Virus record (IMG/VR): IMGVR_UViG_3300031539_000401
Location: 1 to 20,226 of that record
Length of the DNA: 20,226 nt
Source of the DNA: a virus
Direction: 5' to 3' (one strand)
The translations under genes and the position numbers were made by a program. Positions 4,108 through 19,740 of the stretch are shown piece by piece; positions within the stretch are counted from its first letter, which is position 1; every line of letters begins with the position of its first letter. Below the pieces are notes generated by a model. The model had not been told where the DNA came from. It worked only from the letters and a program-made list of their open reading frames with translations, and did no database searches.

Positions 4108-4212
4108 GCGGGCGAGGCCAAAAGAAAAGGCCGCCGGGGTGTCTGGCCCCAGACGGCCTTTCACTTCATGGCACACAGCGCGGCGGGAGCTACCCACCGT
4201 GCCGTCGCCCGC
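4108..4212 (-). repeat. Structured intergenic element, copy 1 (before the tail tube gene)
   Basis: On the minus strand the element is enclosed by an 8 bp stem (GCGGGCGA at 4205-4212 with TCGCCCGC at 4108-4115). Inside are a 7 bp hairpin with a 5 nt loop (4193-4199 with 4181-4187), a linker containing GTGTGCCATGAAGTG, and a terminator-like hairpin with a U-rich tail. About 70 nt of it match copy 2 with three differences. It lies entirely between the gp10-like gene stop and the tail tube SD. It may be a transcription-control RNA, a processing site, or a module-boundary sequence used in recombination. Confidence 0.6.
4120..4160 (-). terminator. Terminator-like hairpin in element copy 1
   Basis: On the minus strand AAGGCCG (4154-4160) pairs with CGGCCTT (4127-4133). 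An internal GTCTG/CAGAC or TGGGG/CCCC pairing strengthens the stem, and TTTTCTTTT follows. The tube gene starts 46 nt further on, so complete termination here would silence it. Partial termination, antitermination or RNA processing is more likely. Confidence 0.6.
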
Positions 4213-5415: not shown

Positions 5416-5799
5416 CTATTTGGTCTCCACGTGTTTCGTGTGTATCCGCAATGTTCCGCGCGTGGCGTCACAGTAACGCCAGTGCGGTTCGTTATTGCCC
5501 GGTTCCAGAACCTCATAGACATAGGTCTGGTCATCCGCGCCCGTCTCTTCAATGCGGTCGCCTACTTGCGGGAGCGTCGCCACTGCATCGAACAGTAGGT
5601 CGGTGGTGTCGACCAGAAAATCACGCATCTCAAAAACCGTTTCAACCCCATCGAGTCCCATCATGCGGAATACGGTCTTGCCCACCGTGGCGTCGAGCGC
5701 GACAGAATCCTCACCCCGTCGGTACGTAACCGCGTGCGTCATGTGGGCCTTGCGCTGCCCGCGCAGCCAATCAAAGCCGTCCTGGAGCATATCGCTCAT
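5416..5799 (-). CDS. Head-tail stopper / head completion protein (gpFII-like)
   Basis: This 127-residue protein starts at the ATG at 5799, overlapping the stop of the glycosyltransferase fusion gene as ATGA, which places it in the same translationally coupled unit. A longer upstream reading would run into the glycosyltransferase gene and is not used. The sequence begins MSDMLQDGFDWLRGQRKAHM and continues with VTYRRGEDSVALDATVGKT, then RDFLVDTTDLLF, PQVGDRIEETG and a C-terminal PHWRYCDATRGTLRIHTKHV. The YRRG start, the 'dfLvd..dL..d' strand, the PxxGDRI turn and the terminal RIHTK strand are typical of the small beta-barrel stopper proteins annotated as head-tail joining or 'ATP-binding sugar transporter-like' in phages. 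It is expected to seal the portal after DNA packaging. Confidence 0.75.
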   Translation of the reverse strand: MSDMLQDGFDWLRGQRKAHMTHAVTYRRGEDSVALDATVGKTVFRMMGLDGVETVFEMRDFLVDTTDLLFDAVATLPQVGDRIEETGADDQTYVYEVLEPGNNEPHWRYCDATRGTLRIHTKHVETK

Positions 5800-7409
5800 C
5801 GCCTGGCATCCTGCACGAGTTGGGCCATCACGCTGCCTTCCCGCAGTTCGTCCGCGTTGTGCTGTCGGCAGGCGAGCCACTGAAGATAGTTCGTCACGGC
5901 ATCGGACTTGGGCAGCCACCCGCGGACCATCTCCTCCAGGTCTCGCTTAAACGTGGCAAGGCTTGTCGTATGCGCCACGCCGGCATTGCCGTAGAGCGAC
6001 GGGCCGAACGCGAGGACCGGGCATCCCATCGCAAGGCATTCGTTCCCGGCATTCGAGTTGATGGTGACGGCGAACTTGGCGCCAGCCACGGCCTCCGCGA
6101 GCGTCGCGGCCTGACATCGCGGCAGGTATTGATGGCGTGACTTGACCCGTTTGTTCGGATGCGGACGCAGGACACCGCGGACGCCTCGCGGCAGGTTGCG
6201 GGCGACGAGTTTTTCGACCTGGAGGGCATGACACGGCGTAGAATCGTCGAGTTGGCTGTCGCCATCCATCTGTCCGAGCACTAGCACGTACCCTTCCCGC
6301 CTGCCGAATGATCCGAGCGGTCGGGGCCAGACCTTCGCCAGTCGCGCGGCACCGTCGGCCGGGGCGGGCCTTGCCCAATCATGCGCCCAGCTCGCCCAGT
6401 GGAGAATCCCGCTCTTGTTCAGGTGGATGTAGTTGCGGCGGTCGAAGAATCCATGCTCGAACACGATGTAAGGCACATGGCGCGCCCGTGCCGCACTCAC
6501 CGCCTTTTCATATTGAAACTTGCGACCATTCCAGATGATGAGCATGTCCGAGGTGTCAAAGTCGGGGACCGCCTGACTCAATCGCCAGACTTCCACGGTA
6601 CAGCCGATGTTCTGGAGCCCCTGAGCAATCGCATGGAAGGGCTGTTCCGTGTCCTCCCATTGCACGTCGAGCAGGGCGTAACAGACCCGCAGCCCCTTGT
6701 ACTGCGTGCCGCGCGGTTCCAGTTCGGTAATCAATTCCGGCGCGGGCGCAGCCGACAACTCCGTCCGCCCGTGCGCCCAGAGATGGAGCGTGAAGGGCAT
6801 CTGCCCGCTCGTCGGGGCGACATACTGCATTCTGCGGCACCCGTTCTTCCAAATACGGATCGCCCGCCCGATGGCGGCAGGATAGAACCACGGCCACGCG
6901 CCAACGGTGAACAGGTCAACATGCCCCGCAACAAGGGCCGTGAACATCTCCGGGCCGAAGCAGCAGCGCGAGAACGGCGGTTTCTGCGCGGCGCAGTAGG
7001 CGCGGATATGCGGCCACGCGGCGGAATCGGTATTGCCCGCGATGATGCCGTTGGCCATCGTGAGCGCCTGATTCTTCTGCCCATGCTGTTCGGTGATGAA
7101 CATCCGCTGCCCATCGACCGCGTAGGCGCTCGTAATGTCCGAAACGGGACGGAGCGGTATGTAGTCCGTGTCAAAATACCACCCGCCATATCGTTCAACG
7201 GCTGACAGTGCCAGCAGATCCGACTTCGAGCATGTGTCCTCGAGATGATTGTAGGCGTCCACGTAGTGGGGCAAGAGCACTTCGTTCCCGTGTATCCGCA
7301 CCTCATAGTCGGGATTGAGCAGGCGGAACTTCTCGACGTTCATCAGCATCCAGTGGGGCATCGGCGGTGAACCGTCAACCCAGACAAAATGAATCTTTTG
7401 GGGAATCAC
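5796..7409 (-). CDS. Two-domain glycosyltransferase: DXD sugar-transferase domain fused to a capsule-synthesis-like domain
   Basis: This 537-residue protein uses a GTG start at 7409, with AAGGAG upstream (8 nt spacer) and a GTGA overlap with the previous gene. Residues 1-230 form a GT-A domain of the 'glycosyltransferase sugar-binding region containing DXD' family (PF04488): it starts IPQKIHFVW, and the metal-binding DTD is at residues 80-82 in GGWYFDTDYIPL. This half is clearly paralogous to the preceding gene (shared FGPEMFT, LFTVGAWPWF and LHLWAHG). Residues about 240-537 look like a GT-B type capsule-synthesis domain (KpsC/KpsS-like, PF05159): GYVLVLGQMDGDSQ, VLRPHPN, and TINSNAGNECLAMGCPVLAF followed by GPSLYGNAG. 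One protein could therefore add two sugars in sequence. It is the last gene of the cassette and is coupled to the stopper gene. Substrates are unknown. Confidence 0.85.
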   Translation of the reverse strand: MIPQKIHFVWVDGSPPMPHWMLMNVEKFRLLNPDYEVRIHGNEVLLPHYVDAYNHLEDTCSKSDLLALSAVERYGGWYFDTDYIPLRPVSDITSAYAVDGQRMFITEQHGQKNQALTMANGIIAGNTDSAAWPHIRAYCAAQKPPFSRCCFGPEMFTALVAGHVDLFTVGAWPWFYPAAIGRAIRIWKNGCRRMQYVAPTSGQMPFTLHLWAHGRTELSAAPAPELITELEPRGTQYKGLRVCYALLDVQWEDTEQPFHAIAQGLQNIGCTVEVWRLSQAVPDFDTSDMLIIWNGRKFQYEKAVSAARARHVPYIVFEHGFFDRRNYIHLNKSGILHWASWAHDWARPAPADGAARLAKVWPRPLGSFGRREGYVLVLGQMDGDSQLDDSTPCHALQVEKLVARNLPRGVRGVLRPHPNKRVKSRHQYLPRCQAATLAEAVAGAKFAVTINSNAGNECLAMGCPVLAFGPSLYGNAGVAHTTSLATFKRDLEEMVRGWLPKSDAVTNYLQWLACRQHNADELREGSVMAQLVQDARR

Positions 7410-8095
7410 GCCTTATTCTCCTTGCCCGGCACCAGCAAGTCCGGCTTGCCATGTGCCCAAAGATGCAGCATGTACGGCAGTTGCCCGCCCGTAGGGGCCA
7501 CCAACCGCAGGGATGTCAGACCATGTTGCGCGGCGTACCGGTGCATGACGGCCGCCGTAGCTATGGGCAACGGAAAGAACCATGGCCAGGCGCCGACAGT
7601 AAACAATTCGGGATGCATCGCCTCGAAATGTGTGAACATCTCCGGCCCGAAGCGTGTCCGGCTATGCGGGGGTCTCGCCGCCGCAACGTGTTCCTCAAAG
7701 AGCGGCCAGCCGCGCCACTCCGTGCTCGCCGCCATCACGCCGCACGCAATCTTCAGGGACTTGTCCCGCTGCCCGTGCTGCCGCGCGACAAACATGGTCT
7801 GCCCATCCAGCATCCAGGCGTAACGCAAGTCACTCAGGCTGCGCAGGGGCACGAAATCCGTATCGAAGTAGAAGCCCCCTTGCGTGCGCATGACGCTCAG
7901 GGCTACAAGGTCCGCCTTGGTACAAAGGTCGTCCGTCTCCACGTAGCGCCGCCTAAATGGTTCTACGAGTTCCGACTCATTGTGGACAATGACGCGATAA
8001 TCTGGGTTGAGGCGCTGAAAGCCCCCGATGTTCTCCTGCACCCATGCCGGACGCGGCGGGCCAATCCAGACAAAATGTATGAGAGAGGGAATCAC
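7406..8095 (-). CDS. DXD-type glycosyltransferase (GT-A, PF04488-like)
   Basis: This 229-residue protein uses a GTG start at 8095 that overlaps the TGA of the previous gene, with AAAGG six bases upstream. It begins MIPSLIHFVWIG, the usual opening of this family. It has KADLVALSVMRTQGGFYFDT with the metal-binding DTD at residues 78-80, and conserved blocks RFGPEMFTHFE, ELFTVGAWPWFFPL and MLHLWAHGKP. It probably transfers a sugar from a nucleotide-sugar donor. The protein covers only the single GT-A domain and is paralogous to the N-terminal half of the next gene (5796-7409), suggesting tandem duplication followed by fusion or loss of a second domain. It is a soluble protein with no signal peptide or membrane segment. 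The acceptor is unknown. Confidence 0.87.
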   Translation of the reverse strand: MIPSLIHFVWIGPPRPAWVQENIGGFQRLNPDYRVIVHNESELVEPFRRRYVETDDLCTKADLVALSVMRTQGGFYFDTDFVPLRSLSDLRYAWMLDGQTMFVARQHGQRDKSLKIACGVMAASTEWRGWPLFEEHVAAARPPHSRTRFGPEMFTHFEAMHPELFTVGAWPWFFPLPIATAAVMHRYAAQHGLTSLRLVAPTGGQLPYMLHLWAHGKPDLLVPGKENKA

Positions 8096-8766
8096 GGTTT
8101 GCCTTTCTTCTCGGCTGCGAGTACTTCCGCTTCCTTCTTGGACTCACAGAGGGGATGCCAGCGGTGGATAAACGCCGGATCATCTTCTCGGACCCTTAGT
8201 TCGCGCACATGCCACCAGTGGGCAAAGCGCCCGTCCTCATTCGCTACACCCCACTTGTAACTCACGACCCACAGGTTGATGGCCCACTGGTCCTTGCGGA
8301 CGATGCAGCAACCGTGTCCGGCCCCCCAATACATCGCGGCCCCAGGCCCGTGCTCACGCTGGTAGCGCGGGAAGTATCCCTTGCCTGCTGTCGCCAACTC
8401 CATGCCGCGCCGGAGCACGGTGGCGGGCACCTCCATGTCCGTCTCCATGAAAAACAGAATGGGGGCCTGCGCGAGTTTGGCGGCCTCGTTCTTGCCGCCA
8501 CCAAGACTGAACGGGCCGTCCTGCTGCTGAATCCGCACGGGGATCGGGTCGGCGCGTGCGGGCAGCCACTCCGCCAGTGGCCAGTCGGTGCTGTGGAAGT
8601 CCGCGACGATGATCTCCACCTTCAGCCCCGACTCCAAGACGGACTTGCGCAGGCAATCCATGGTATGCGGGAACGGCTCTAGGGGCCGCTCTACCTGTTC
8701 GCCGCCGGGCAACGTGGCCATGTATGTCATGCGTGACCTGTTGAAGCACGCAAAACAGATGCTCAT
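8092..8766 (-). CDS. GT2-like (GT-A fold) glycosyltransferase
   Basis: The protein has 224 residues from the ATG at 8766, which overlaps the epimerase stop as ATGA. An ATG six bases upstream (8772) is an alternative. The N-terminus MSICFACFNRS is the first beta strand of a GT-A fold. It is followed by a helix (LRKSVLESG), the strand VEIIVADF, and GGGKNEAAKLAQAP before FFMETDMEVP, where TDME is the DXD-like metal site (around residues 109-112). The later WGVANEDGRFAHWWHV resembles the 'WG.ED.' region found in chondroitin-polymerase and beta-4-galactosyltransferase relatives, which contributes the catalytic acid. The C-terminus is Lys/Glu-rich (KKEAEVLAAEKKGKP) and probably flexible. It belongs to the coupled glycan cassette and lies between the epimerase and two DXD transferases. 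The sugar specificity cannot be read from sequence. Confidence 0.8.
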   Translation of the reverse strand: MSICFACFNRSRMTYMATLPGGEQVERPLEPFPHTMDCLRKSVLESGLKVEIIVADFHSTDWPLAEWLPARADPIPVRIQQQDGPFSLGGGKNEAAKLAQAPILFFMETDMEVPATVLRRGMELATAGKGYFPRYQREHGPGAAMYWGAGHGCCIVRKDQWAINLWVVSYKWGVANEDGRFAHWWHVRELRVREDDPAFIHRWHPLCESKKEAEVLAAEKKGKP

Positions 8767-9704
8767 ATCCATAGGTGGTGATACTCCAATGCTTTCTGTG
8801 CGGCGTCTGCGGAGACTTCTTCAACGTACCAGCGATATGTCGCTTCCAGTCCCTCTACCCACGGGGTGAAACCGAGGATCAGGTTCGCGCGCGCAAGCGC
8901 ATGACGGAGCGGGTTGATATCGGCTACCAGCCGCGTGTTCTCAACCTCCCCGACGCGCATGGGTAGGTGTCGGATACCCGCAGCACTCCCCGCAACCTCA
9001 TTGATGGTCTGCGCCACTGCCAGGACTGAAAGGGCGTGTCCCGTGCCCAGTTCGTAGACCTTATCCGCCAGCCCGGAGCGCGTTGCGGCCACCGTCCATC
9101 GGGCGAGGTCGTCAGCGTAGATCATGTCCGTTGTGTTCAATCCCGTTCCGTAGATCGGCAGGGGCAGACCAAAGCGGGCGCAGAGACAAAACGTGGGGAC
9201 GATTTTTCGCACCGGGGCCGTGTGCTGCTCCGGCCCGTATGCGTTGAACCATCGCAAGCGGATGATCTGCGTTGCCTCGCAGGTCAGGATTTCCGCAAAC
9301 CTGTCCGCCGCCTCTTTCGTTATCGTGTATGCGTTCAGCCACACATTGGGCTTCGTCGGGTAAAACACACGGCGGACGCCGGCGCGGACGCACGATTCAA
9401 AGACGTTGACCGCCCCCTTCACGTTCACGTCAATCGCCATCTGCATCGCGCCGTTCAACTCGGAGGTGCCCAGCACACCCGCTAGGTTGTACACCTCATC
9501 GGCGCCCACGATTGCCTCGTCTATCGTCGCGGGCTGGAGAATGTCGCAGGAGGCCACGGTAAGTCCCATGCTGCCCGCCGCCCACTGTGGCGAGAGGCCG
9601 GACAGGGTGGTGACGTGCAACTCATCTCCGCGCGCAAGCAACTCGCGCGCGATTGCGCCGCCCAAGAACCCGTCGCTTCCTATAACTACGCAACGCATGG
9701 GCAT
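8763..9704 (-). CDS. NAD-dependent nucleotide-sugar epimerase/dehydratase (extended SDR)
   Basis: This 313-residue protein starts at the ATG at 9704 (MPMRCVVIG), overlapping the previous stop as TGATG and preceded by AAAGG with an 8 nt spacer. It has the extended-SDR dinucleotide-binding motif GSDGFLGG (about residues 9-16), the VYNLAG strand (residues 71-76), and catalytic Tyr126 and Lys130 in AYTITKEAADRF. The C-terminal substrate part contains LRWFNAYGPEQ, YGTGLNTTDMIYADDLAR and YELGTGHALSV, all characteristic of UDP/GDP/dTDP-sugar epimerases and dehydratases. It likely converts a host nucleotide sugar into the donor used by the downstream glycosyltransferases. It is the only sugar-forming enzyme in the cassette, so other steps must come from the host. 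Exact reaction (4-epimerase, dehydratase or reductase) is not determinable here. Confidence 0.9.
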   Translation of the reverse strand: MPMRCVVIGSDGFLGGAIARELLARGDELHVTTLSGLSPQWAAGSMGLTVASCDILQPATIDEAIVGADEVYNLAGVLGTSELNGAMQMAIDVNVKGAVNVFESCVRAGVRRVFYPTKPNVWLNAYTITKEAADRFAEILTCEATQIIRLRWFNAYGPEQHTAPVRKIVPTFCLCARFGLPLPIYGTGLNTTDMIYADDLARWTVAATRSGLADKVYELGTGHALSVLAVAQTINEVAGSAAGIRHLPMRVGEVENTRLVADINPLRHALARANLILGFTPWVEGLEATYRWYVEEVSADAAQKALEYHHLWI

Positions 9705-10276
9705 CACACCAACCTTTCCAGCCAGTCGGGAATCGGGGAATCGGACAGAACACTCGTCCACACGGGATACCGCTTGTAGTCCCAGCGGTATCGGAAGTCC
9801 GGCAGACGGTGCAACTCGTAGACCGGGCGAGTCGGCCCCCTGCCCTGCGGATCGGGTTCGGTATTGTTCAGGATGAAGAGGTCGGCCTTGCCGCGCAGGG
9901 CTATAAGATTGTCGGGGCGGCGCTGGGCAATCCCGGAATCTTCAAAGACGACGGACCAGCGGCCGCCCTCGGGGAACTCGTAGAGATCACCTGTTGCGGG
10001 GTGCCGTCCGAAATGCCGGCAACCCACAAACTGCGAGATCACGTCGGTATGGACGATCTCATGCAGGGGCGCGCGCAAGTCTGCGAAGCGCGCAAGCCAT
10101 TTCAGGTTGACATCCACCGTCAACAGTTGGCGGCCCATTGCGCCGCAGAGCGCGTGGAGCAGGCGCGTGCTGTAGTGACCGCATCCGAGTTCAAGCACCG
10201 GGCCGGTCGTCTTGGCGACACACGCCGCGAGCACGGGGATGTGCGTGCCCCAAAGGTCTATTTCGCCGTTGTCCAT
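9704..10276 (-). CDS. SAM-methyltransferase-like protein, paralogue 2
   Basis: This 190-residue protein starts at the ATG at 10276, with AGAGG five bases upstream and the stop of the TylF-like gene in between (AGGTAGACATG). The opening IDLWGTHIPVLAACVAKTTG leads to PVLELGCGHYSTRLL, a Rossmann-type SAM-binding motif I (about residues 27-37). LLTVDVNLKWLARF follows, with the acidic residue expected at the end of strand 2. The C-terminus RYPVWTSVLSDSPIPDWLERL matches the end of the paralogue at 10847-11350, where YSPWTSVVSDTEPLDWLKP occurs. Around residues 130-165 it carries an insert-like VVFEDSG and DLFILNNTEPDP segment. It is likely a class I methyltransferase acting on the glycan, but the substrate is unknown and a nucleotide-binding non-methyltransferase role is possible. 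Confidence 0.72.
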   Translation of the reverse strand: MDNGEIDLWGTHIPVLAACVAKTTGPVLELGCGHYSTRLLHALCGAMGRQLLTVDVNLKWLARFADLRAPLHEIVHTDVISQFVGCRHFGRHPATGDLYEFPEGGRWSVVFEDSGIAQRRPDNLIALRGKADLFILNNTEPDPQGRGPTRPVYELHRLPDFRYRWDYKRYPVWTSVLSDSPIPDWLERLV

Positions 10277-10278
10277 GT

Positions 10279-10845
10279 CTACCTCTTGATGAACCAGATG
10301 TGGTGCGAAGGAAGGAGCACGCCTTCTTCTACCACGCGCGTACACGTCATCCACTCACGAATAGCTTGCGTGGCGAGCCATTGATATTCGGGATACCAGT
10401 CGTGACAGCAGAGAATGCCGCCCGGACTCATACGGCCCCACACCCATCGCAAGGTTTCGTACGTCGGGCGATACTGGTCGAGGTCCACATGCACGAACGC
10501 AAACCGGGGCAACCCCATGCGCCAGAGCACCGTCGGAATGTAGCCGTCCCATATCACGACAGATCGCCCGAACGGTGCGACTAACTGACGAAAGGCCGCC
10601 GAGCCACCGACGTTCAGAGAACCCTCGGGGTAGGAGCACTTGCCTTCCTTGTCAAAATCCTTTTCTGTGGGCCAGGCCATGCCGCGAAAACTGTCTACGG
10701 CGTGGACGTGCTTGGCGACCGCTATTGCCGCCTGCGCGAGCGGTATGAACGTCGCACCATGCCAGACCCCGAACTCGGCAAAGTCGCCCGGAATGGTCTT
10801 TGCCTGTTCGACGAGATGGGCAATCTGTTCAAAGGCTGCACGCAT
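10279..10845 (-). CDS. TylF/MycF-family methyltransferase
   Basis: This 188-residue protein starts at the ATG at 10845, with GAGG six bases upstream and the preceding stop in the spacer. A longer reading to 10878 lies within the previous gene and lacks an SD. The protein has GDFAEFGVWHGATFIPLA (SAM motif I, about residues 20-37), VHAVDSFRGM (motif II, around residue 50), FAFVHVDLDQYRPTYETLRW (residues about 117-134) with the Asp pair 121/123 that binds the metal, and GGILCCHDW (around 142-150). These are the landmarks of macrocin-O-methyltransferase (TylF) and MycF, Mg-dependent sugar O-methyltransferases of macrolide and polysaccharide pathways. In this cassette it probably O-methylates a sugar or glycan. 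It is flanked on both sides by two mutually paralogous methyltransferase-like genes. Confidence 0.88.
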   Translation of the reverse strand: MRAAFEQIAHLVEQAKTIPGDFAEFGVWHGATFIPLAQAAIAVAKHVHAVDSFRGMAWPTEKDFDKEGKCSYPEGSLNVGGSAAFRQLVAPFGRSVVIWDGYIPTVLWRMGLPRFAFVHVDLDQYRPTYETLRWVWGRMSPGGILCCHDWYPEYQWLATQAIREWMTCTRVVEEGVLLPSHHIWFIKR

Positions 10846-10846
10846 G

Positions 10847-11350
10847 TCAGACCTCGCAAATCGGTTTAAGCCAATCAAGGGGTTCCGTGTCGCTCACGAC
10901 GGACGTCCACGGCGAATACCGCTGCCATTCGACGCGATGCTTGAACTGTGTCAGCAACGGTTCGTATCGATAGCAGCGATTCTCGGTGTCGTGGATGACT
11001 ATGAGTTTCGTCAGCGGACGAAGGCGCAGGATGTCCGGCACGCGACGTATCGGCGGGGCATGGTCTATCAGCGCCACGTCCCACGTGCCCGATAGGTCGG
11101 CTGCCGACCAATCCGGCACCAGCAGCAGGCGGTGCCAGGCCGTGGCGAAGTGTCGGAACTGTGCCAGCCAGTTTGCATCGCTTTCCAGACTCAAGAGCGT
11201 CCGCCCCGTCTCGGCACAGAGGGCGTGGAGCATCGGCGTCGAGAATGTCCCCGTCCCCAGTTCGATGATGGGGCCGCGCGTATGCTGCACGCACGCCATC
11301 AGCAGCGGCAGATGCGTCGCGTAGGGCGGCAATTTCGCTCGTTCATCCAT
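10847..11350 (-). CDS. SAM-methyltransferase-like protein, paralogue 1 (first gene of the glycan cassette)
   Basis: This 167-residue protein starts at the ATG at 11350 (MDERAKLPPYATHLPLLMAC), preceded by AGAGGA with a 5 nt spacer. A longer reading to 11386 would begin inside the terminator and is rejected. Residues 28-37 (IIELGTGTFST) form SAM motif I, LLSLESDANWLAQF is the motif II strand, and WDVALIDHAPP is the later acidic strand. The paralogue at 9704-10276 shares (T/A)THxPxLxAC, the motif, LLHALC, and the C-terminal PWTSVxSD. It lacks the insert seen in paralogue 2. It opens the seven-gene coupled cassette and lies 23 nt downstream of the terminator hairpin. Its role on the glycan is inferred from context. 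Confidence 0.72.
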   Translation of the reverse strand: MDERAKLPPYATHLPLLMACVQHTRGPIIELGTGTFSTPMLHALCAETGRTLLSLESDANWLAQFRHFATAWHRLLLVPDWSAADLSGTWDVALIDHAPPIRRVPDILRLRPLTKLIVIHDTENRCYRYEPLLTQFKHRVEWQRYSPWTSVVSDTEPLDWLKPICEV

Positions 11351-11372
11351 GCGCGTCCTCTGCTTGACAACC

Positions 11373-11417
11373 GGAAAAGAAACCACAGACGCCCATCTCA
11401 GGCTGCCCCGTCTGCGG
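11373..11417 (-). terminator. Intrinsic terminator between the cement protein gene and the glycan cassette
   Basis: On the minus strand CCGCAGACG (11409-11417) pairs over 9 bp, with one wobble, with CGTCTGTGG (11383-11391) around a 17 nt loop. TTTCTTTT follows. It lies just after the cement gene and just before the first cassette gene, and no promoter is visible between it and the cassette. Read-through from the head operon would therefore set a low level of cassette and connector expression. Confidence 0.7.
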
Positions 11418-11453
11418 CTATCCCTCGGGCCTTTTGCCGGGGAGGGAGCATCC

Positions 11454-11789
11454 TTACGGGATGAGCTTCACGCGGACCGTTGCCGCAGCCGCAGCCGCAG
11501 CGATCACGACCTTGCCGAATCGCTTGAGGATGCCTGCAACCGAGGTCACAATATCCTCCGCGTCATTCCAGTAGACAATCGTCCCTGCGGCGAGGGCCGA
11601 GGTGGACGTGGTATCCTTGGGCACGTCGAACACGCCCTCAACGTAGAGCGCGCCCTTGCGGTTGGCCGCGATGTCATCCACGGCCACGCCGACGAGATCC
11701 GCCTGGACAATCACGTCTCCGGCAGAGACATTCGAGCCGGGCGTGTAGTCCACCATGTTCCCGGCCTGCACATATGTTGCGGTCGCCAT
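11454..11789 (-). CDS. Capsid cement/decoration protein, DUF2190-like
   Basis: This 111-residue protein starts at the ATG at 11789, preceded by GGAGG with a 9 nt spacer. The sequence begins MATATYVQAGNMVDYTPGSN. It continues with VSAGDVIVQADLVGVAVDDI, NRKGALYVEGVFDVPKD and AGTIVYWNDAEDIVT, and ends FGKVVIAAAAAAATVRVKLI. This is the recognisable layout of DUF2190 proteins: a 'YTPGSDVSAGDVI' strand, 'GVA', a GxLxVEGVF strand, an 'aGTxVYWDD' strand, and an Ala-rich GK(V)..AA stretch before a terminal VRVKL strand. DUF2190 members are small beta-barrel proteins that trimerise on the capsid surface as cement. The gene follows directly after the capsid gene and is separated from it by a strong stem-loop. 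The Ala-rich segment is longer than usual (seven Ala in a row). Confidence 0.88.
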   Translation of the reverse strand: MATATYVQAGNMVDYTPGSNVSAGDVIVQADLVGVAVDDIAANRKGALYVEGVFDVPKDTTSTSALAAGTIVYWNDAEDIVTSVAGILKRFGKVVIAAAAAAATVRVKLIP

Positions 11790-11825
11790 CTGTTTGAACC
11801 TCCATGAGCCAAAGTGTCAGGTTAT

Positions 11826-11856
11826 GGGCAGGCCCGCCGTATGGCGGGCCATGCCC
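11826..11856 (-). other. Strong intercistronic stem-loop between capsid and cement genes
   Basis: GGGCA plus GGCCCGCC (11826-11838) pair with GGCGGGCC plus TGCCC (11843-11856), giving 13 base pairs with a single-base bulge and a 4 nt loop. No T-run follows on the minus strand (ATAACCTGAC follows), so it is not a classic terminator. It may stabilise the capsid-cement mRNA 3' end or reduce read-through. The function is inferred. Confidence 0.6.
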
Positions 11857-11865
11857 GGAACGTGC

Positions 11866-13353
11866 TTACAAGGCACCCTTGGACTTCACGCCGCCGAGGT
11901 AGTCGGCAAGCGCAACGCCGAAGTCCCAATAGCAGCGGTACTGGATGCCGAGCAGGTTGAAATCAACCTCGCCCTGCTCGATGATGGGCGTCCGCTGGCC
12001 CTTCAGGTAACCCACCTCGAACGCCGGGATGTCATTCGGGTTGGCCAGGAGATACCAGGCCGTCGTCGAATAGCCGGTGAGGTTGGCGTTGCTGAGGTAA
12101 GGGCTGCACTCAACCTTGTAAGAACCCGCGTGCGGATTCGAGTTCGGCTTCGGCACGTTGGCCGTAGTCGTCTCGTTGACCGTGATGTCGGTGTAGAGCT
12201 GCTTGGCAAGTATCAGCAGCGCCGTGGGCACCAGGATCATCGTCGGCGTGACTGCAATCGGGTCGCCGTCGGCATCAACCTGATCCATGAACATCTGGAC
12301 CGCCGTGGTGAGCGAACTGATTTGCAGGTTCGTTGCCGCGCCGGCGAAGTAGTTGACGTTGGCAGCCGTGAAGAAGCTGGCCCCGACACCCGTCGCGTTG
12401 ATGGCCGTAAACAGCGCCTTCTCGCGCGAGAGCGCGGCCTTGCGGCCGAGGAGCGCCGGGATCTCGGTAAACGCGCCCAGGTCATCGTTGACGATCTGTT
12501 GGCGCGTGAGTCCGATAAGCACGCCACGGGTGTCAAGCTGGTGCGTGTAGCTATCCTCGCCCAGTGTGAGGTGCTTGAGTTCACCTCCAGACCCCACGGT
12601 CTCCATGTTCCCACCCATGCTCATGCGATAGCGGGTGTGAACGTGGAAGTTGTTGAGGTCTACCTGCTTGGCAATGCGCGTGCTCACGGGGTCAACTGCG
12701 GTGAATGCCGCGAGCAGGCTCTTGTTCGCAACGGCACCGAGGATGCCGGGCAGCGTCAAGGTGCTGAACGCGGCGCGGATGGTGTCATTGTCGAACACCG
12801 GGCCGACGCCCTTACCCTCCATGCGGCAGCATTGGAGGAAGAGGTCTCTGAGGCCCATCCCCCGCAGCGGATAGGCCGCCTCAAGCGTCGGGGCGTCATA
12901 CGCCTTCTCGATGTCGATGCCGACGCCCATACATAGCGCGGCTTCGAGCACCTTGGGCGTGCGGGACTCGGAATGGGCCGGGCGGATGCCGATATGCCCG
13001 CGATCAGCGCGCATGACCTCAAGTTCGGCCTTTTCCGGCGTCCAGTCCTCGGTGAGCGCCTTGGCGAGAATCTCCGCGTGCTTTTCGCCGCAGAGTGCGC
13101 GCAGATTGGCTTCGCGTGCGCGTTCCGCCTTTAGGTCCGCGCGGACGGCCGCGATCACCTTGTCGGTGTCAACGGTCGCCTGAATCGCGTCGGGCGTCTC
13201 CTTGCCCGTGTCTGTCTCCGTCTCCTCGTCATTTTCTGCGTCGGCCACCGCCTTCACTTCAGCGTCATAGGCGGCGCGGAGCGCCTTGGACTGCTGCTCA
13301 TTCAGGGTCTTCGCATCGAAGCCCTGTGCTTCAAGCCACTTGTCGAACTCCAT
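11866..13353 (-). CDS. Possible nested product: scaffold plus major capsid protein from an internal start
   Basis: An in-frame ATG at 13353 (MEFDKWLEAQGFDAKTLNE) has a perfect SD (AGGAGGT at 13360-13366) with a 6 nt spacer. Initiation here would give a 495-residue protein with the scaffold-like segment and the whole capsid domain but no protease. The junction sequence immediately before it, SLTTTGGQD, looks like a linker. This start would fit the need for many more capsid subunits than proteases, similar in principle to nested protease/scaffold genes such as lambda C/Nu3. Whether the ribosome uses it is inferred from the SD alone. Confidence 0.65.
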   Translation of the reverse strand: MEFDKWLEAQGFDAKTLNEQQSKALRAAYDAEVKAVADAENDEETETDTGKETPDAIQATVDTDKVIAAVRADLKAERAREANLRALCGEKHAEILAKALTEDWTPEKAELEVMRADRGHIGIRPAHSESRTPKVLEAALCMGVGIDIEKAYDAPTLEAAYPLRGMGLRDLFLQCCRMEGKGVGPVFDNDTIRAAFSTLTLPGILGAVANKSLLAAFTAVDPVSTRIAKQVDLNNFHVHTRYRMSMGGNMETVGSGGELKHLTLGEDSYTHQLDTRGVLIGLTRQQIVNDDLGAFTEIPALLGRKAALSREKALFTAINATGVGASFFTAANVNYFAGAATNLQISSLTTAVQMFMDQVDADGDPIAVTPTMILVPTALLILAKQLYTDITVNETTTANVPKPNSNPHAGSYKVECSPYLSNANLTGYSTTAWYLLANPNDIPAFEVGYLKGQRTPIIEQGEVDFNLLGIQYRCYWDFGVALADYLGGVKSKGAL

Positions 13354-14139: not shown

Positions 14140-14245
14140 GCGGGCGAGGCCAAAAAGAAAAGGCCGCCGGGGTGTCTGGCCCCAGACGGCCTTGCACTTC
14201 TTGGCACACAGCGCGGTGATGATCAGTCACCGCGACGTCGCCCGC
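14140..14245 (-). repeat. Structured intergenic element, copy 2 (before the capsid polyprotein)
   Basis: The same layout as copy 1: an enclosing 8 bp stem (TCGCCCGC at 14238-14245 on the plus strand with GCGGGCGA at 14140-14147), a hairpin of 8 bp with a 7 nt loop (14227-14234 with 14212-14219), the linker GTGTGCCAAGAAGTG, and a terminator-like hairpin. It lies between the portal stop and the capsid gene. The near-identical part includes linker and terminator, while the variable hairpin differs from copy 1 in sequence but keeps pairing. Confidence 0.6.
14152..14193 (-). terminator. Terminator-like hairpin in element copy 2
   Basis: On the minus strand AAGGCCG (14187-14193) pairs with CGGCCTT (14160-14166) and is followed by TTTTCTTTTT. 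The capsid gene starts 37 nt further on, so efficient termination would block the most abundant virion protein. Regulated read-through or processing is more plausible. Confidence 0.6.
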
Positions 14246-16353: not shown

Positions 16354-16584
16354 CTAATGGTGAGGCGGATTTTCTGACATTTCTTGACCGGACTTCTCGA
16401 AAGTGCGCGTCCGGCGACCGCAGTTGCGACATTCACGCGCCCGCATGATGCCCCCGAAGGTGCGGCGCGTGTAGAGGACATAGAGGTGCTGGCAGCCGCA
16501 TTCGGGGCAGCGTATGCCTTCCTCTTGCGACTGGCGCGCCTTGTTAATATCCGAGTGATCGGGCTTCGCGTGCTTCTCGCGCAA
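16354..16584 (-). CDS. NrdR-like zinc-ribbon protein
   Basis: This 76-residue protein overlaps the end of the terminase gene by 41 bases. I chose the TTG at 16584 because GAGGAGG (16592-16598) precedes it by 7 nt. Residues 24-63 form a rubredoxin-like zinc ribbon: IRCPECGCQHLYVLYTRR with Cys26 and Cys29, then RARECRNCGRRTRTFEK with Cys52 and Cys55. The pattern CPxC-(..)-R..CxxCGxRxxTFE closely follows the N-terminal zinc ribbon of NrdR, but the ATP-cone that makes NrdR a nucleotide-sensing repressor is absent. It may bind DNA or RNA, for example as a late regulator or packaging cofactor, or bind the terminase. Function is not known. Confidence 0.75.
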   Translation of the reverse strand: MREKHAKPDHSDINKARQSQEEGIRCPECGCQHLYVLYTRRTFGGIMRARECRNCGRRTRTFEKSGQEMSENPPHH

Positions 16585-18754
16585 GTCGTGCCCTCCTCTG
16601 CATCTCTGCGGCGCTCATCGGCGCCTTCTCGGTGCGGACCTGCACCTTGGTCATACCAGTACCCGGCAATGCGGCGCCCAGCATGGACGCCCCGGCCGCG
16701 CAGCCCACTACGCAATCGAACCAATGGTTGTCTGGTCTGTGCGCGGGCTGCTTCCACTCGTCCAGTTCACGGCCGCGCCCCTGTGTCCGTACGCGGTATT
16801 CACTGGTCATGTGCTCGGCAAAGAGGCGGTGTTCACCGGGCTTCGTGCCGAAGAGTGACAAGCACCCCTTGTCCCCCATCGCGGTTGAGAAGCGTTCATG
16901 GACAAAGGTTTTCCAGTAGTTGGTATCCACCTCAACGTGCCGCAGTGCCCGCTTCTTTGCTACGCTGGGAATCCACCAGTTGTGCCCGATGCGGTCGCCA
17001 CGGTGCCTGTCGAACTCGCTGATGGGTTTCATGCTCGCGGTGATCCCATGTCCGCGTGCGGGCATGAGCGTAGCCGCGTGGCCCGATTGCCGGCAGAACT
17101 GGTGGACGACGGGCGTGAGCCATCCCTGGTCTATCAGGCACCATCGAACCCGCATGACCGCCCCATCGTCACGCGCCCACTCCGCTGTAATCAGGTGGTT
17201 CACCGCCGCCCCCAGCGCGGCGTATATGGCACCCTCAACGCCGGTCCCCGGGTGCGCGCGGCGGATCGTCCGTTGCACGTCGCGGTATGCAAAGTAGGCA
17301 CTGCCCTGTTCGGGATAGGTGCCGTAGTCCATGATGTAGCCGGTAAAGTCCGGCTCCCATGCGCAGACGGCCCAGTACAGCAACTTCTCCCCCACGTCTA
17401 CAAACGCGGTCAGGTGCTCGGCAGTGTGCGGCACCTCGCCCCTGATGCGCCCGTTGATCTTGGCAGCGATGCCGTCAGCATCCAGTATGGGCACCTGTTC
17501 CAGTTGCGGCGCCATCGGCTCATTCTGGTACTCCGAGAAGAACGCCGCCTCATCCCGGAGTCTCAGGTTGATAGCGTGCTGAATCGCTGAAAGCTCGTCG
17601 GGGTTGTGACACTCCGGCCATGCTATCTGCGCGCCCTGGTCCATTTCGGCCTGATGCTCCCGATAGAACTCCGTCGCCTCCTCACCGTTGGCGCCCTTGC
17701 GGAAACTGTCGGCCCGGAGTTCTGCGTATTGCTCCCACCGTTTCGCGTTGGTCGGGAACTGATAGACCATCTTGAACCGTTCCCCGTTCCATTCGGGGTG
17801 CGCGTCGCGGTCCAATATGCGGTCGGCCATGTCGCCCGGGCTGATGACCGTGCAGGGCATGATGCCCGATATCTTCTTGCCCGGCCCTGCGAGGCCGAGT
17901 GCCGCGCCCGCGAGTATGCGCTCCCGCGCCTGGCACTGGGAGAGGCTCCGCGCGCTTTCGTCTGTCTGCGGGTCGTCCAATATCACCACGTCAGGGCGAA
18001 TTGAGTCGCCTTCCGGCGTCTGGTGCTTCATGCCGCGTATGCGCCCCGTGATACCTGCTACCTTCAGGATCGCCCCGCTCGCCTTGCTCCCCGGAATCGT
18101 GGGCAGCACGATTTCTTTCTGTGTCCATTCTATGTGCGTGCGTTCGCCCTCACAGAGTTGGCCCGCGCAGCGATTCGCAATCCCCTCCAGACATTGAATC
18201 GGGTAGGCCACCTCCGGGAAATCCGCGAGCAGCAAATCGTTCGTGTCGAGTTCCACTTTGATGGTGTCCAGCATATTGACGGCGTGCCCCTCGTCCGAAC
18301 CGATGAGCGCCACAAAGCGCCGGTGTCCGTATGCGGTAGACCAGATGCACGCGCGTTCGCAGAGCGAACTCTTACCACTGCCGCGCGGCATCGCCACGGC
18401 AAACAGACCCCCTCGCAGCACAGCCTGCTCAATACGCGCGATGACCTTCAGATGATCCGGCGACCACGGCAGATAAAATACGTGGGGGAAATAGCTTTCG
18501 CAGAACACCCGGAAACTGCCGGCGGCCTGCGCCTTGCGTTCGGGGTCGGCAACCGCTGGAATGGGCGCAATGTCACGCCCGGCCTGCGCCATCTGCGCCT
18601 GACGCGCGCGGGAGCGTTCCTTGCGGCTGGCATAGTCGCCGTTACCATCCCGTGGCTTGCCGATGCTGCGCAGCAGTCGCACATCATCCGGCGTCAATGC
18701 CCCAATGTTTGTCTTGGCAAGCTCGATGATTTCAGCAATCGTCCGCTTTGCCAT
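16544..18754 (-). CDS. Large terminase subunit (packaging ATPase-nuclease)
   Basis: This 736-residue protein starts at the ATG at 18754, sharing a base with the methyltransferase stop (TAATG). Walker A is VAMPRGSGKSS (about residues 120-130) and Walker B is VVILDDPQTDE (256-266) with the Asp-Asp pair. The segment SPGDMADRIL (306-315) fits the coupling region. The nuclease half begins near AFVDVGEKLLYWAVC (Asp454). It carries LIDQGW later and ends with RPDNHWFDCVVGCAAGASML (around 685-705), the final acidic strand typical of these enzymes, in a style close to GpA-like terminases. An extension of about 30 basic residues (MQRRARLAREAREARSLGY at the end) follows and overlaps the zinc-ribbon gene. 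It packages DNA into the prohead through the portal. No small terminase subunit is recognisable in the window, so it is presumably upstream. Confidence 0.92.
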   Translation of the reverse strand: MAKRTIAEIIELAKTNIGALTPDDVRLLRSIGKPRDGNGDYASRKERSRARQAQMAQAGRDIAPIPAVADPERKAQAAGSFRVFCESYFPHVFYLPWSPDHLKVIARIEQAVLRGGLFAVAMPRGSGKSSLCERACIWSTAYGHRRFVALIGSDEGHAVNMLDTIKVELDTNDLLLADFPEVAYPIQCLEGIANRCAGQLCEGERTHIEWTQKEIVLPTIPGSKASGAILKVAGITGRIRGMKHQTPEGDSIRPDVVILDDPQTDESARSLSQCQARERILAGAALGLAGPGKKISGIMPCTVISPGDMADRILDRDAHPEWNGERFKMVYQFPTNAKRWEQYAELRADSFRKGANGEEATEFYREHQAEMDQGAQIAWPECHNPDELSAIQHAINLRLRDEAAFFSEYQNEPMAPQLEQVPILDADGIAAKINGRIRGEVPHTAEHLTAFVDVGEKLLYWAVCAWEPDFTGYIMDYGTYPEQGSAYFAYRDVQRTIRRAHPGTGVEGAIYAALGAAVNHLITAEWARDDGAVMRVRWCLIDQGWLTPVVHQFCRQSGHAATLMPARGHGITASMKPISEFDRHRGDRIGHNWWIPSVAKKRALRHVEVDTNYWKTFVHERFSTAMGDKGCLSLFGTKPGEHRLFAEHMTSEYRVRTQGRGRELDEWKQPAHRPDNHWFDCVVGCAAGASMLGAALPGTGMTKVQVRTEKAPMSAAEMQRRARLAREAREARSLGY
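16592..16598 (-). promoter_or_regulatory. Ribosome binding site that fixes a TTG start
   Basis: GAGGAGG on the minus strand lies inside the last codons of the terminase gene, 7 nt before TTG at 16584. No ATG or GTG occurs at this distance, so the zinc-ribbon gene very probably starts with TTG. Confidence 0.65.
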
Positions 18755-19740
18755 TATGCTCCCTTGCTTGCCTTCCTTAGTATTTCTATCTTCATATGTT
18801 CTGCAATTGCCTTTATCAAGTTCGGAGGAACGCTATTGCCGATATGTGCTTTTATATCTGTCTGGGTTCCATGCCATTTAAAGGTATCAGGGAATCCCTG
18901 CAAGAGACTAGCTTCCTGTATAGTCAAGTGCCGTGGGACTTCATAATGCCAATTGGAATGGGCTTTGATTTGCGTATTGCTGGGCCTATTCGGGTCAAGT
19001 CGTACAGACTGAAAACTTCCAACATACCGGACGGCTTTGCATAGAGATTGCCCGGGCTTGCTTTTGTACCACGCATCAATTACTTGTGGCTGATGCTTGC
19101 CCTGTTCTCCCTTCGGCAAATGCCCAATAGCATCCCTGACCGTTCTTGGTTTCGTCTGTGGCTGCGGGAAACTTGGCTCAATCCCCAAGTTGTTCCGTAC
19201 GCCGATAATGATAACCCGCTCCCGACTCTGCGGCACATTGAAGTACATGGCATTCACGACTTCGCCTCTGGCCCGATATCCACACTCTCGTAGGGTCTGA
19301 ATGATGCATAGATATGCCTGCTTCATATATCCCCTTATCAGTCCGGTCACGTTCTCCATAACAAATGTACGGGGCTGCAAATCCTTTAGTAATCTCGCAA
19401 ACTCCATGAATAGACTATTACGCAGATCAGTAAACCGCCGCTTCCCAGCCGTACTGAATCCCTGACAGGGCGGGGAAGCATCCAATAGGTCAAGTGCGCC
19501 CAACTTGATGTCAGCGAGTCTTATACATTCTGGACCGGTTAGCTTTGCAATATCGCCATGATAGACTGGTACATCAGGAAAGTTTAGCTTGAATGTTGCT
19601 ACGGCATTATCATCCCACTCAATAGCAAGTAGTTCTCGAAATCCTGCTAGCTCATAGCCAAGAGAAGAGCCGCCGCATCCAGCAAAGAGAGAAATTACTG
19701 TCGGCTGCTTACCACTTGAATCCACACTTGGGACATTCAT
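18754..19740 (-). CDS. DNA (cytosine-5) methyltransferase
   Basis: This 328-residue protein has all main C5-methyltransferase motifs in order: I ISLFAGCGGSSLGYE (about 16-30), IV SPPCQGFSTAGK with catalytic Cys92, VI FVMENVTGL (127-133), VIII QSRERVIIIG (171-180), IX RHLTIQEASLLQGFPDTF (270-287), and X HIGNSVPPNLIKAI (299-312). The recognition domain lies between VIII and IX and is short and basic. No endonuclease gene is next to it, so it is an orphan enzyme, likely protecting phage DNA from host restriction. The ATG at 19740 lies inside the end of the ParB-like gene (32 bp overlap) without a good SD, so coupling is likely. The gene is much more AT-rich than its neighbours (two 60-base lines at 42% GC), suggesting recent acquisition. 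The target sequence cannot be read. Confidence 0.95.
   Translation of the reverse strand: MNVPSVDSSGKQPTVISLFAGCGGSSLGYELAGFRELLAIEWDDNAVATFKLNFPDVPVYHGDIAKLTGPECIRLADIKLGALDLLDASPPCQGFSTAGKRRFTDLRNSLFMEFARLLKDLQPRTFVMENVTGLIRGYMKQAYLCIIQTLRECGYRARGEVVNAMYFNVPQSRERVIIIGVRNNLGIEPSFPQPQTKPRTVRDAIGHLPKGEQGKHQPQVIDAWYKSKPGQSLCKAVRYVGSFQSVRLDPNRPSNTQIKAHSNWHYEVPRHLTIQEASLLQGFPDTFKWHGTQTDIKAHIGNSVPPNLIKAIAEHMKIEILRKASKGA

Follow-up and report, generated by a model that had tools for sequence, protein, structure and literature searches.

The window analysed here is a stretch of 20,226 nucleotides (IMG/VR virus record IMGVR_UViG_3300031539_000401, positions 1 to 20,226) that forms part of a phage genome; a 33.5-kb contig includes the whole window at 99.99% identity. 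Seven tightly packed minus-strand genes at positions 5796-11350 are flanked by the genes for the cement (DUF2190) and stopper proteins, and we refer to these seven genes as the cassette. The original prediction treated them as a unit, which does not hold among relatives: one gene alone, encoding a GT32-type glycosyltransferase fused to a KpsC/WbbB-like domain (hereafter the fusion), is the constant gene of the cement-stopper slot, and the other slot genes turn over. The cassette is very probably glycan-building machinery, and it probably acts on a virion protein. The reading that we prefer, with moderate confidence, is that a late cytoplasmic enzyme set assembles a short glycan on virions of the phage itself, for which Ser62/Ser64 of the cement protein are the best acceptor candidates.

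The cement-stopper slot and its constant gene

All seven predicted open reading frames (ORFs) between cement and stopper were confirmed as coupled minus-strand genes, in agreement with their Pfam matches and flanks (Table 1). Most gene junctions overlap or are in near contact, the sole exception being a 103-bp gap after the cement gene, and in the ATGA at 5796-5799 the TGA of the fusion gene overlaps the stopper ATG. No sigma-70-like promoter was found on the cassette strand of the 103-bp spacer. Attenuation is not proposed there, as the possible hairpin is no better than those of shuffled sequences (z -0.59).

Viral contigs were searched with the fusion, the portal and the neighbouring proteins as queries, which gave about 200 loci; all ORFs of these loci were then compared with profiles derived from the window genes. 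The slot was resolved in 15 non-redundant fusion-encoding phages with the cement gene on the contig (L003, L015, L016, L018, L020, L021 with L124, L025, L112, L115, L116, L118, L120, L126, L127 and L128). In all 15, the fusion gene is situated between the cement and stopper genes and has the same orientation as these. It is directly upstream of the stopper gene wherever the downstream side is present on the contig, and its stop codon falls within ATGA or GTGA in 17 of 20 junctions. Other relatives have an empty slot, with a cement-stopper gap of at most about 130-150 bp in 48 loci of one scan and 35 of another, two sets that share some contigs. The random placement or opposite orientation that the original prediction had named as evidence against itself was looked for, and the same slot, the same strand and the same stopper coupling were found. 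Since divergent phages share the homologues, their order and the overlaps, the cassette is far beyond what chance would produce.

The remaining content of the slot is variable. In L112, L116 and L127 the fusion is the only recognised gene. The two methyltransferase-like proteins of the window (MT-like a and b) also occur in the slots of L015, L016 and L025, GT2 relatives in L015, L021 and L128, and the TylF-type methyltransferase in L016 and L118. Elsewhere, we detected a methyltransferase-GT2 fusion (L020, L025, L125), Methyltransf_24 (L018, L115), an exostosin-like GT47 (L115, L120) and a sulfotransferase-like protein (L120, L128).

Several loci carry other genes at or near this position. 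The slot of L087 (5249-6508) is filled by an ORF for a trypsin-like serine protease instead of glycan genes. In L141 (IMGVR_UViG_3300031806_000001, 8228-9758) the fusion has been lost, and the slot holds an unrelated, virion-like ORF of 168 aa. L048 has a different sugar cassette after cement (6403-12415), with a glycosyltransferase-like gene, several methyltransferase-like genes and a radical-SAM-like gene that resembles one adjoining the GT32 gene of L023. In the 165-kb viral contig L022 (3500-15694), a GT32-type gene lies inside what was judged by eye to be a long sugar pathway, with short-chain dehydrogenases/reductases (SDRs), a dehydroquinate-synthase-like cyclase and phosphosugar isomerase-like and cytidylyltransferase-like proteins.

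Judged from co-divergence and from the lack of outside matches, the fusion has long resided in these genomes and is specific to phages, and it is not a recent passenger. Among cassette phages, its distances track those of the large terminase TerL (Mantel r=0.82, p=0.0005), the portal (r=0.55, p=0.006) and the capsid protein (r=0.51, p=0.002), and its mean divergence of 0.57 is similar to that of these three proteins (0.52-0.59). The fusion, MT-like a and the GT2 protein gave no tblastn match in 50,697 INPHARED phage records (the TylF-type and SDR proteins were not searched there); the stopper gave none either, and the stand-alone GT32 protein gave weak partial matches only. A scan of 84,980 species of bacteria and archaea gave just two short N-terminal matches to the fusion, both in bacterial metagenome-assembled genomes, so that no cellular source can be named. 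The nearest isolates by portal protein are only about 26% identical among the best matches listed, so no host was assigned and the lineage is an uncultured one. A single origin of the cassette, suggested by our first portal tree, was abandoned, as wider sampling requires about four changes and reveals a nested loss in L141. The contig IMGVR_UViG_3300033062_002250 (G006; 39372 bp) probably represents an entire circular genome of this lineage, because the fusion gene is split between its two ends.

These results bear on whether the slot is simply a permissive intergenic site for passenger genes that have no constant target. The protease of L087 and the unrelated ORF of L141 are cargo of the kind that this explanation expects; the fusion, however, is constant, keeps its motifs intact and co-diverges with the terminase at a similar rate, and its coupling to the stopper is conserved. 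We therefore consider the passenger explanation very improbable.

Predicted activities of the fusion and the accessory enzymes

The fusion protein has 20 distinct members in viral contigs, the window copy included. Its N-terminal domain is of the GT32 type: Gly_transf_sug scores above the Pfam cut-off, all members that include the N-terminus keep the DXD motif, and Foldseek matches the domain to Och1 (GT32; 9n3s, 7.4e-6). It is a paralogue of the stand-alone DXD transferase (48% identity), and the Gly_transf_sug E-values of the two are 2.7e-6 and 5.7e-6. A toxin reading of the GT32 domain, based on its likeness to clostridial toxin glucosyltransferases, was rejected; the likeness is the shared GT-A fold and DXD, and no other toxin domain was identified.

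The C-terminal domain has a modified GT-B fold like that of KpsC and WbbB. The AlphaFold2 (AF2) model of the fusion (mean predicted local distance difference test score, pLDDT, 77) has as its best Foldseek matches KpsC (6mgc, E=1.3e-8) and WbbB (5fa1, 7.8e-7), both with a probability of 1.00 but with modest target TM (template modelling) scores of about 0.34-0.58. Retaining transferases of beta-linked 3-deoxy-D-manno-oct-2-ulosonic acid (Kdo) have in common a QXXXD motif, in which the Asp acts as nucleophile (PMC10148158, PMC12887879), and a (K/R)XHP motif that binds cytidine monophosphate (CMP) (PMC12887879). The domain carries this catalytic signature, which sharpens the KpsC/KpsS-like assignment made originally. 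Because both motifs are invariant in 20/20 members, a CMP-activated ulosonic acid is the most likely donor, and we regard it as reasonably probable; in Gram-negative cells, Kdo would be the obvious host pool. A CMP-sugar synthetase (PF02348) was found in none of 13 cassette phages, G006 included.

The accessory proteins also resemble enzymes of glycan synthesis. The two methyltransferase-like proteins are paralogues, as originally proposed (36% identity), and neither matches a Pfam family. The AF2 model of MT-like a (pLDDT 89) has a class I S-adenosylmethionine (SAM)-dependent methyltransferase fold, and the identity, the alignment and this model place MT-like b, by prediction, in the same family. 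The TylF-type protein scores 44.5 bits against a profile cut-off of 23 and matches MycF (4x7y, 1.8e-6) and NovP (2wk1, 3.6e-4). Relatives of the extended SDR are the UDP-glucose 4-epimerase-related protein 6pmh and dTDP-glucose 4,6-dehydratases.

Phage glycosyltransferases can act on DNA, and the window includes a C5-cytosine methyltransferase-like gene (18754-19740), so glycosylation of modified bases by these transferases has to be weighed. The capping methyltransferases, the SDR and the KpsC-type domain, in contrast, look like parts of glycan pathways, the slot is fixed among head genes, and no base-hypermodification gene was noticed by eye in the 33.5-kb relative, in which no systematic family search was made. 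DNA as the target is hardly credible.

Table 1. Positions in the window of the cassette genes, their flanks and selected motifs.
Feature	Positions	Strand	Basis
Stopper/head-tail joining protein, ATGA-coupled to the fusion gene	5416-5799	minus	Pfam PF25138 1.7e-36
Fusion: GT32-type (DXD) transferase + KpsC/WbbB-like domain	5796-7409	minus	Pfam Gly_transf_sug + Capsule_synth (4.4e-10)
(K/R)XHP motif, R415-P-H417-P418	6156-6167	minus	R-X-H-P in 20/20 members
QXXXD motif, Q380-MDG-D384	6258-6272	minus	20/20 members
DXD motif of fusion N-domain, D80-T-D82	7164-7172	minus	FDxD, once MDxD
Stand-alone GT32-type DXD transferase	7406-8095	minus	Pfam Gly_transf_sug
GT2-like glycosyltransferase	8092-8772	minus	Pfam Glycos_transf_2 (PF00535) 4.9e-5
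Extended SDR, nucleotide-sugar epimerase/dehydratase type	8763-9704	minus	Pfam Epimerase 1.1e-26
MT-like b	9704-10276	minus	36% identity to MT-like a
TylF/MycF-type O-methyltransferase	10279-10845 (longest start 10878)	minus	Pfam TylF 1.5e-11
MT-like a, first cassette gene	10847-11350	minus	AF2 model + Foldseek
Spacer of 103 bp, cement to cassette	11351-11453	minus	
Cement (decoration) protein, DUF2190, candidate glycan acceptor	11454-11789	minus	Pfam Phage_cement_2 3.4e-22
Cement Ser62-Thr-Ser64 loop motif, candidate O-glycosylation site	11598-11606	minus	Cassette association

Candidate acceptors and the target of the glycan

To look for an acceptor, we went through 2,632 alignment columns from 11 structural proteins and scored how well their residues distinguish phages with the cassette from those without it. 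The highest-ranking column is a serine in a loop of the cement protein, present in 14 of 15 phages with the cassette versus 1 of 52 without, and a second cement serine, two residues on, ranks sixth (80% versus 8%). The cement protein accounts for three of the seven most diagnostic columns, yet for only 4% of all columns. L141, whose well-supported position is nested inside the cassette phages, has neither the fusion nor the serine motif, and its cement protein is extended to 300 aa. The first serine is also present in L048, the phage with a different glycosyltransferase/methyltransferase cassette after cement. The cement protein is related to a DUF2190-like minor capsid protein (PDB 9gay_C, 5.5e-6); the JBD30 virion (PMC11445458) illustrates, with no homology implied, how decoration trimers sit on a capsid.

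From the observed gene content, slot, coupling, motifs, folds, co-divergence and serine association, we infer enzyme activities, donor, acceptor and benefit as follows. The slot enzymes would be expressed late and would O-glycosylate the virion in the cytoplasm. The GT32-type domain of the fusion would use a metal-bound nucleotide sugar to add a hexose-like residue, after which the KpsC/WbbB-type domain would add Kdo, or another CMP-activated ulosonic acid from the host pool, in a retaining double displacement via Asp384. Additional glycosyltransferases would lengthen the glycan, the SDR would make or modify a sugar donor, and the TylF-type and other methyltransferases would cap the product, as the sulfotransferase-like protein may do elsewhere. 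The best acceptor candidates are Ser62/Ser64 of the cement protein, whose gene is adjacent, and the benefit may be shielding, stability or altered adsorption. A more specific version, in which the cement Ser-x-Ser loop bears an O-glycan that contains Kdo from the host, is capped with methyl or sulfate in a serotype-like manner and is diversified by a dedicated swap slot, is tentative and, taken as a whole, rather doubtful.

Alternatively, the enzymes might cap nascent O-antigen or capsule with methyl groups and beta-Kdo in the cytoplasm late in infection, which would stop re-adsorption of progeny to debris or superinfection by other phages. Methyl capping acts as a chain terminator, and the accessory enzymes vary as serotype-like surface chemistry would. 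KpsC and WbbB use cytoplasmic lipid-linked acceptors, and the beta-Kdo added by WbbB ends O-antigen elongation (PMC12887879). On the other hand, all seven cassette proteins, examined among the proteins of the window, are soluble and have no membrane segments, and the GtrA flippase (PF04138) was found in none of the 13 records of cassette phages, which include fragments. The cassette thus differs from Gtr-type O-antigen conversion cassettes, having no GtrA partner and no membrane glycosyltransferases; this argues against Gtr-type conversion, not against capping of cytoplasmic lipid-linked glycans. The placement in the late structural operon and the stopper coupling in nearly all members also speak against a host target, which leaves the cement serine association unexplained, and we consider it unlikely. 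The original prediction had left the choice between virion and host surface open. Virion glycosylation is now the better supported of the two, because there are no membrane segments and no GtrA or CMP-sugar synthetase, the fusion co-diverges with TerL and the cement serine tracks the cassette; the target and the sugar remain predictions.

It is also conceivable that another virion protein, such as the major capsid, tail-tube, tail-tip or receptor-binding protein, is the acceptor, and that the cement serine is a hitch-hiking marker of the clade. Mycobacteriophages are reported to modify both capsid and tail tube (PMC11600133), and only two well-supported independent contrasts underlie the serine association. 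In L128, moreover, the slot holds a 422-aa protein (6968-8236) without a Pfam match and with a Ser/Thr-rich N-terminal part, possibly a virion surface protein and acceptor. Against this explanation stands the share of the cement protein among the top diagnostic columns, and the first filter let through no Ser/Thr, Asn or Tyr column from six further structural proteins. An acceptor elsewhere in the virion seems quite unlikely. An N-terminal extension of the major capsid protein of cassette phages was set aside as a candidate, being absent in L025 and lying in the protease half, which is expected to be cleaved off.

Several points weigh against a virion glycan on the cement serines. KpsC and WbbB themselves make cell-surface polymers, and the timing of expression could by itself explain why the genes lie in the head operon. 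The association has exceptions, with the fusion and no serine in L127 and the serine without the fusion in L189 and L194. The serine emerged from a column scan and is therefore post hoc. Its Fisher p=1e-8 ignores relatedness; cassette phages lie mostly in one part of the portal tree, which leaves few independent contrasts, only two of them on well-supported branches, and a formal independent-contrast test had too few pairs for significance. Finally, the case is known from the sequences of uncultured phages. Because the Fisher test ignores relatedness and just two contrasts are well supported, we treat the cement serine as a lead and not as a result, and an acceptor role for it as possible but somewhat short of probable.

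Two further elements of the window lie outside the cassette. An element of about 105 bp occurs in two minus-strand copies (4108-4212 and 14140-14245; 89% identical) just upstream of the tail-tube and major-capsid genes. Within it, a run of T comes after a strong GC hairpin, as in a terminator, and among the collected loci the element is present only in the window phage and its twin contig. A small zinc-ribbon-like ORF (16354-16584) overlaps the end of the large terminase gene and is found beside TerL in most relatives.

Significance and comparison with known systems

The union of a KpsC-type ulosonate transferase with a GT32 domain was seen only in phages in the present searches. The slot amounts to a natural experiment, with 15 phages that carry the fusion, dozens that do not and one nested loss, which makes acceptor and function directly testable. 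If our reading is true, phage virion glycosylation reaches past the actinobacteriophage examples that we found, with a named slot and candidate acceptor residues. An unusual glycan coat would disguise or toughen the virions, a strategy known so far mainly in mycobacterial phages, and a capsid bearing Kdo from the host would be a novel case of a phage dressed in host chemistry.

The closest functional parallel is missing from the original statement, which gave DNA and host O-antigen as the targets of known phage glycosyltransferases. Mycobacteriophages of cluster O and others are reported to use tandem glycosyltransferases and an O-methyltransferase to modify capsid and tail tube (PMC11600133, PMC13313380, citing Freeman et al. 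2023). The cassette phage likewise encodes glycosyltransferase genes together with an O-methyltransferase. The enzymes are nevertheless different ones (the fusion, the GT2 protein and MT-like a have no INPHARED match), and the cassette also differs in its KpsC-type domain, its single fixed cement-stopper slot, its candidate acceptor, the cement protein, and its uncultured lineage. In chlorovirus PBCV-1, A064R is a fused glycosyltransferase-glycosyltransferase-methyltransferase enzyme that makes a methyl-capped capsid glycan (PMC9614988). Virus-encoded fused transferases and methyl capping are common to both, by analogy only, since PBCV-1 is a eukaryotic virus with an N-glycan and different glycosyltransferase families.

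At the level of single proteins, the C-terminal domain of the fusion shares its fold, QXXXD and (K/R)XHP with KpsC (GT107), WbbB (GT99) and KrkA (GT140), but it is fused behind a GT32-type GT-A domain, soluble and encoded in a phage structural operon. The N-terminal domain has the fold and DXD of GT32 and other GT-A transferases such as Och1 (a fold shared with GT44); unlike Och1-type GT32 enzymes, it is joined to a Kdo-type domain. The TylF-type protein resembles TylF/MycF sugar O-methyltransferases in family profile and in its MycF match, and its gene is missing from most slots. Phage virion glycosylation as such is already known; the novelty here lies in the family of enzymes, in a slot that is fixed, in the CMP-ulosonate chemistry that we predict and in an acceptor candidate that the neighbouring gene encodes.

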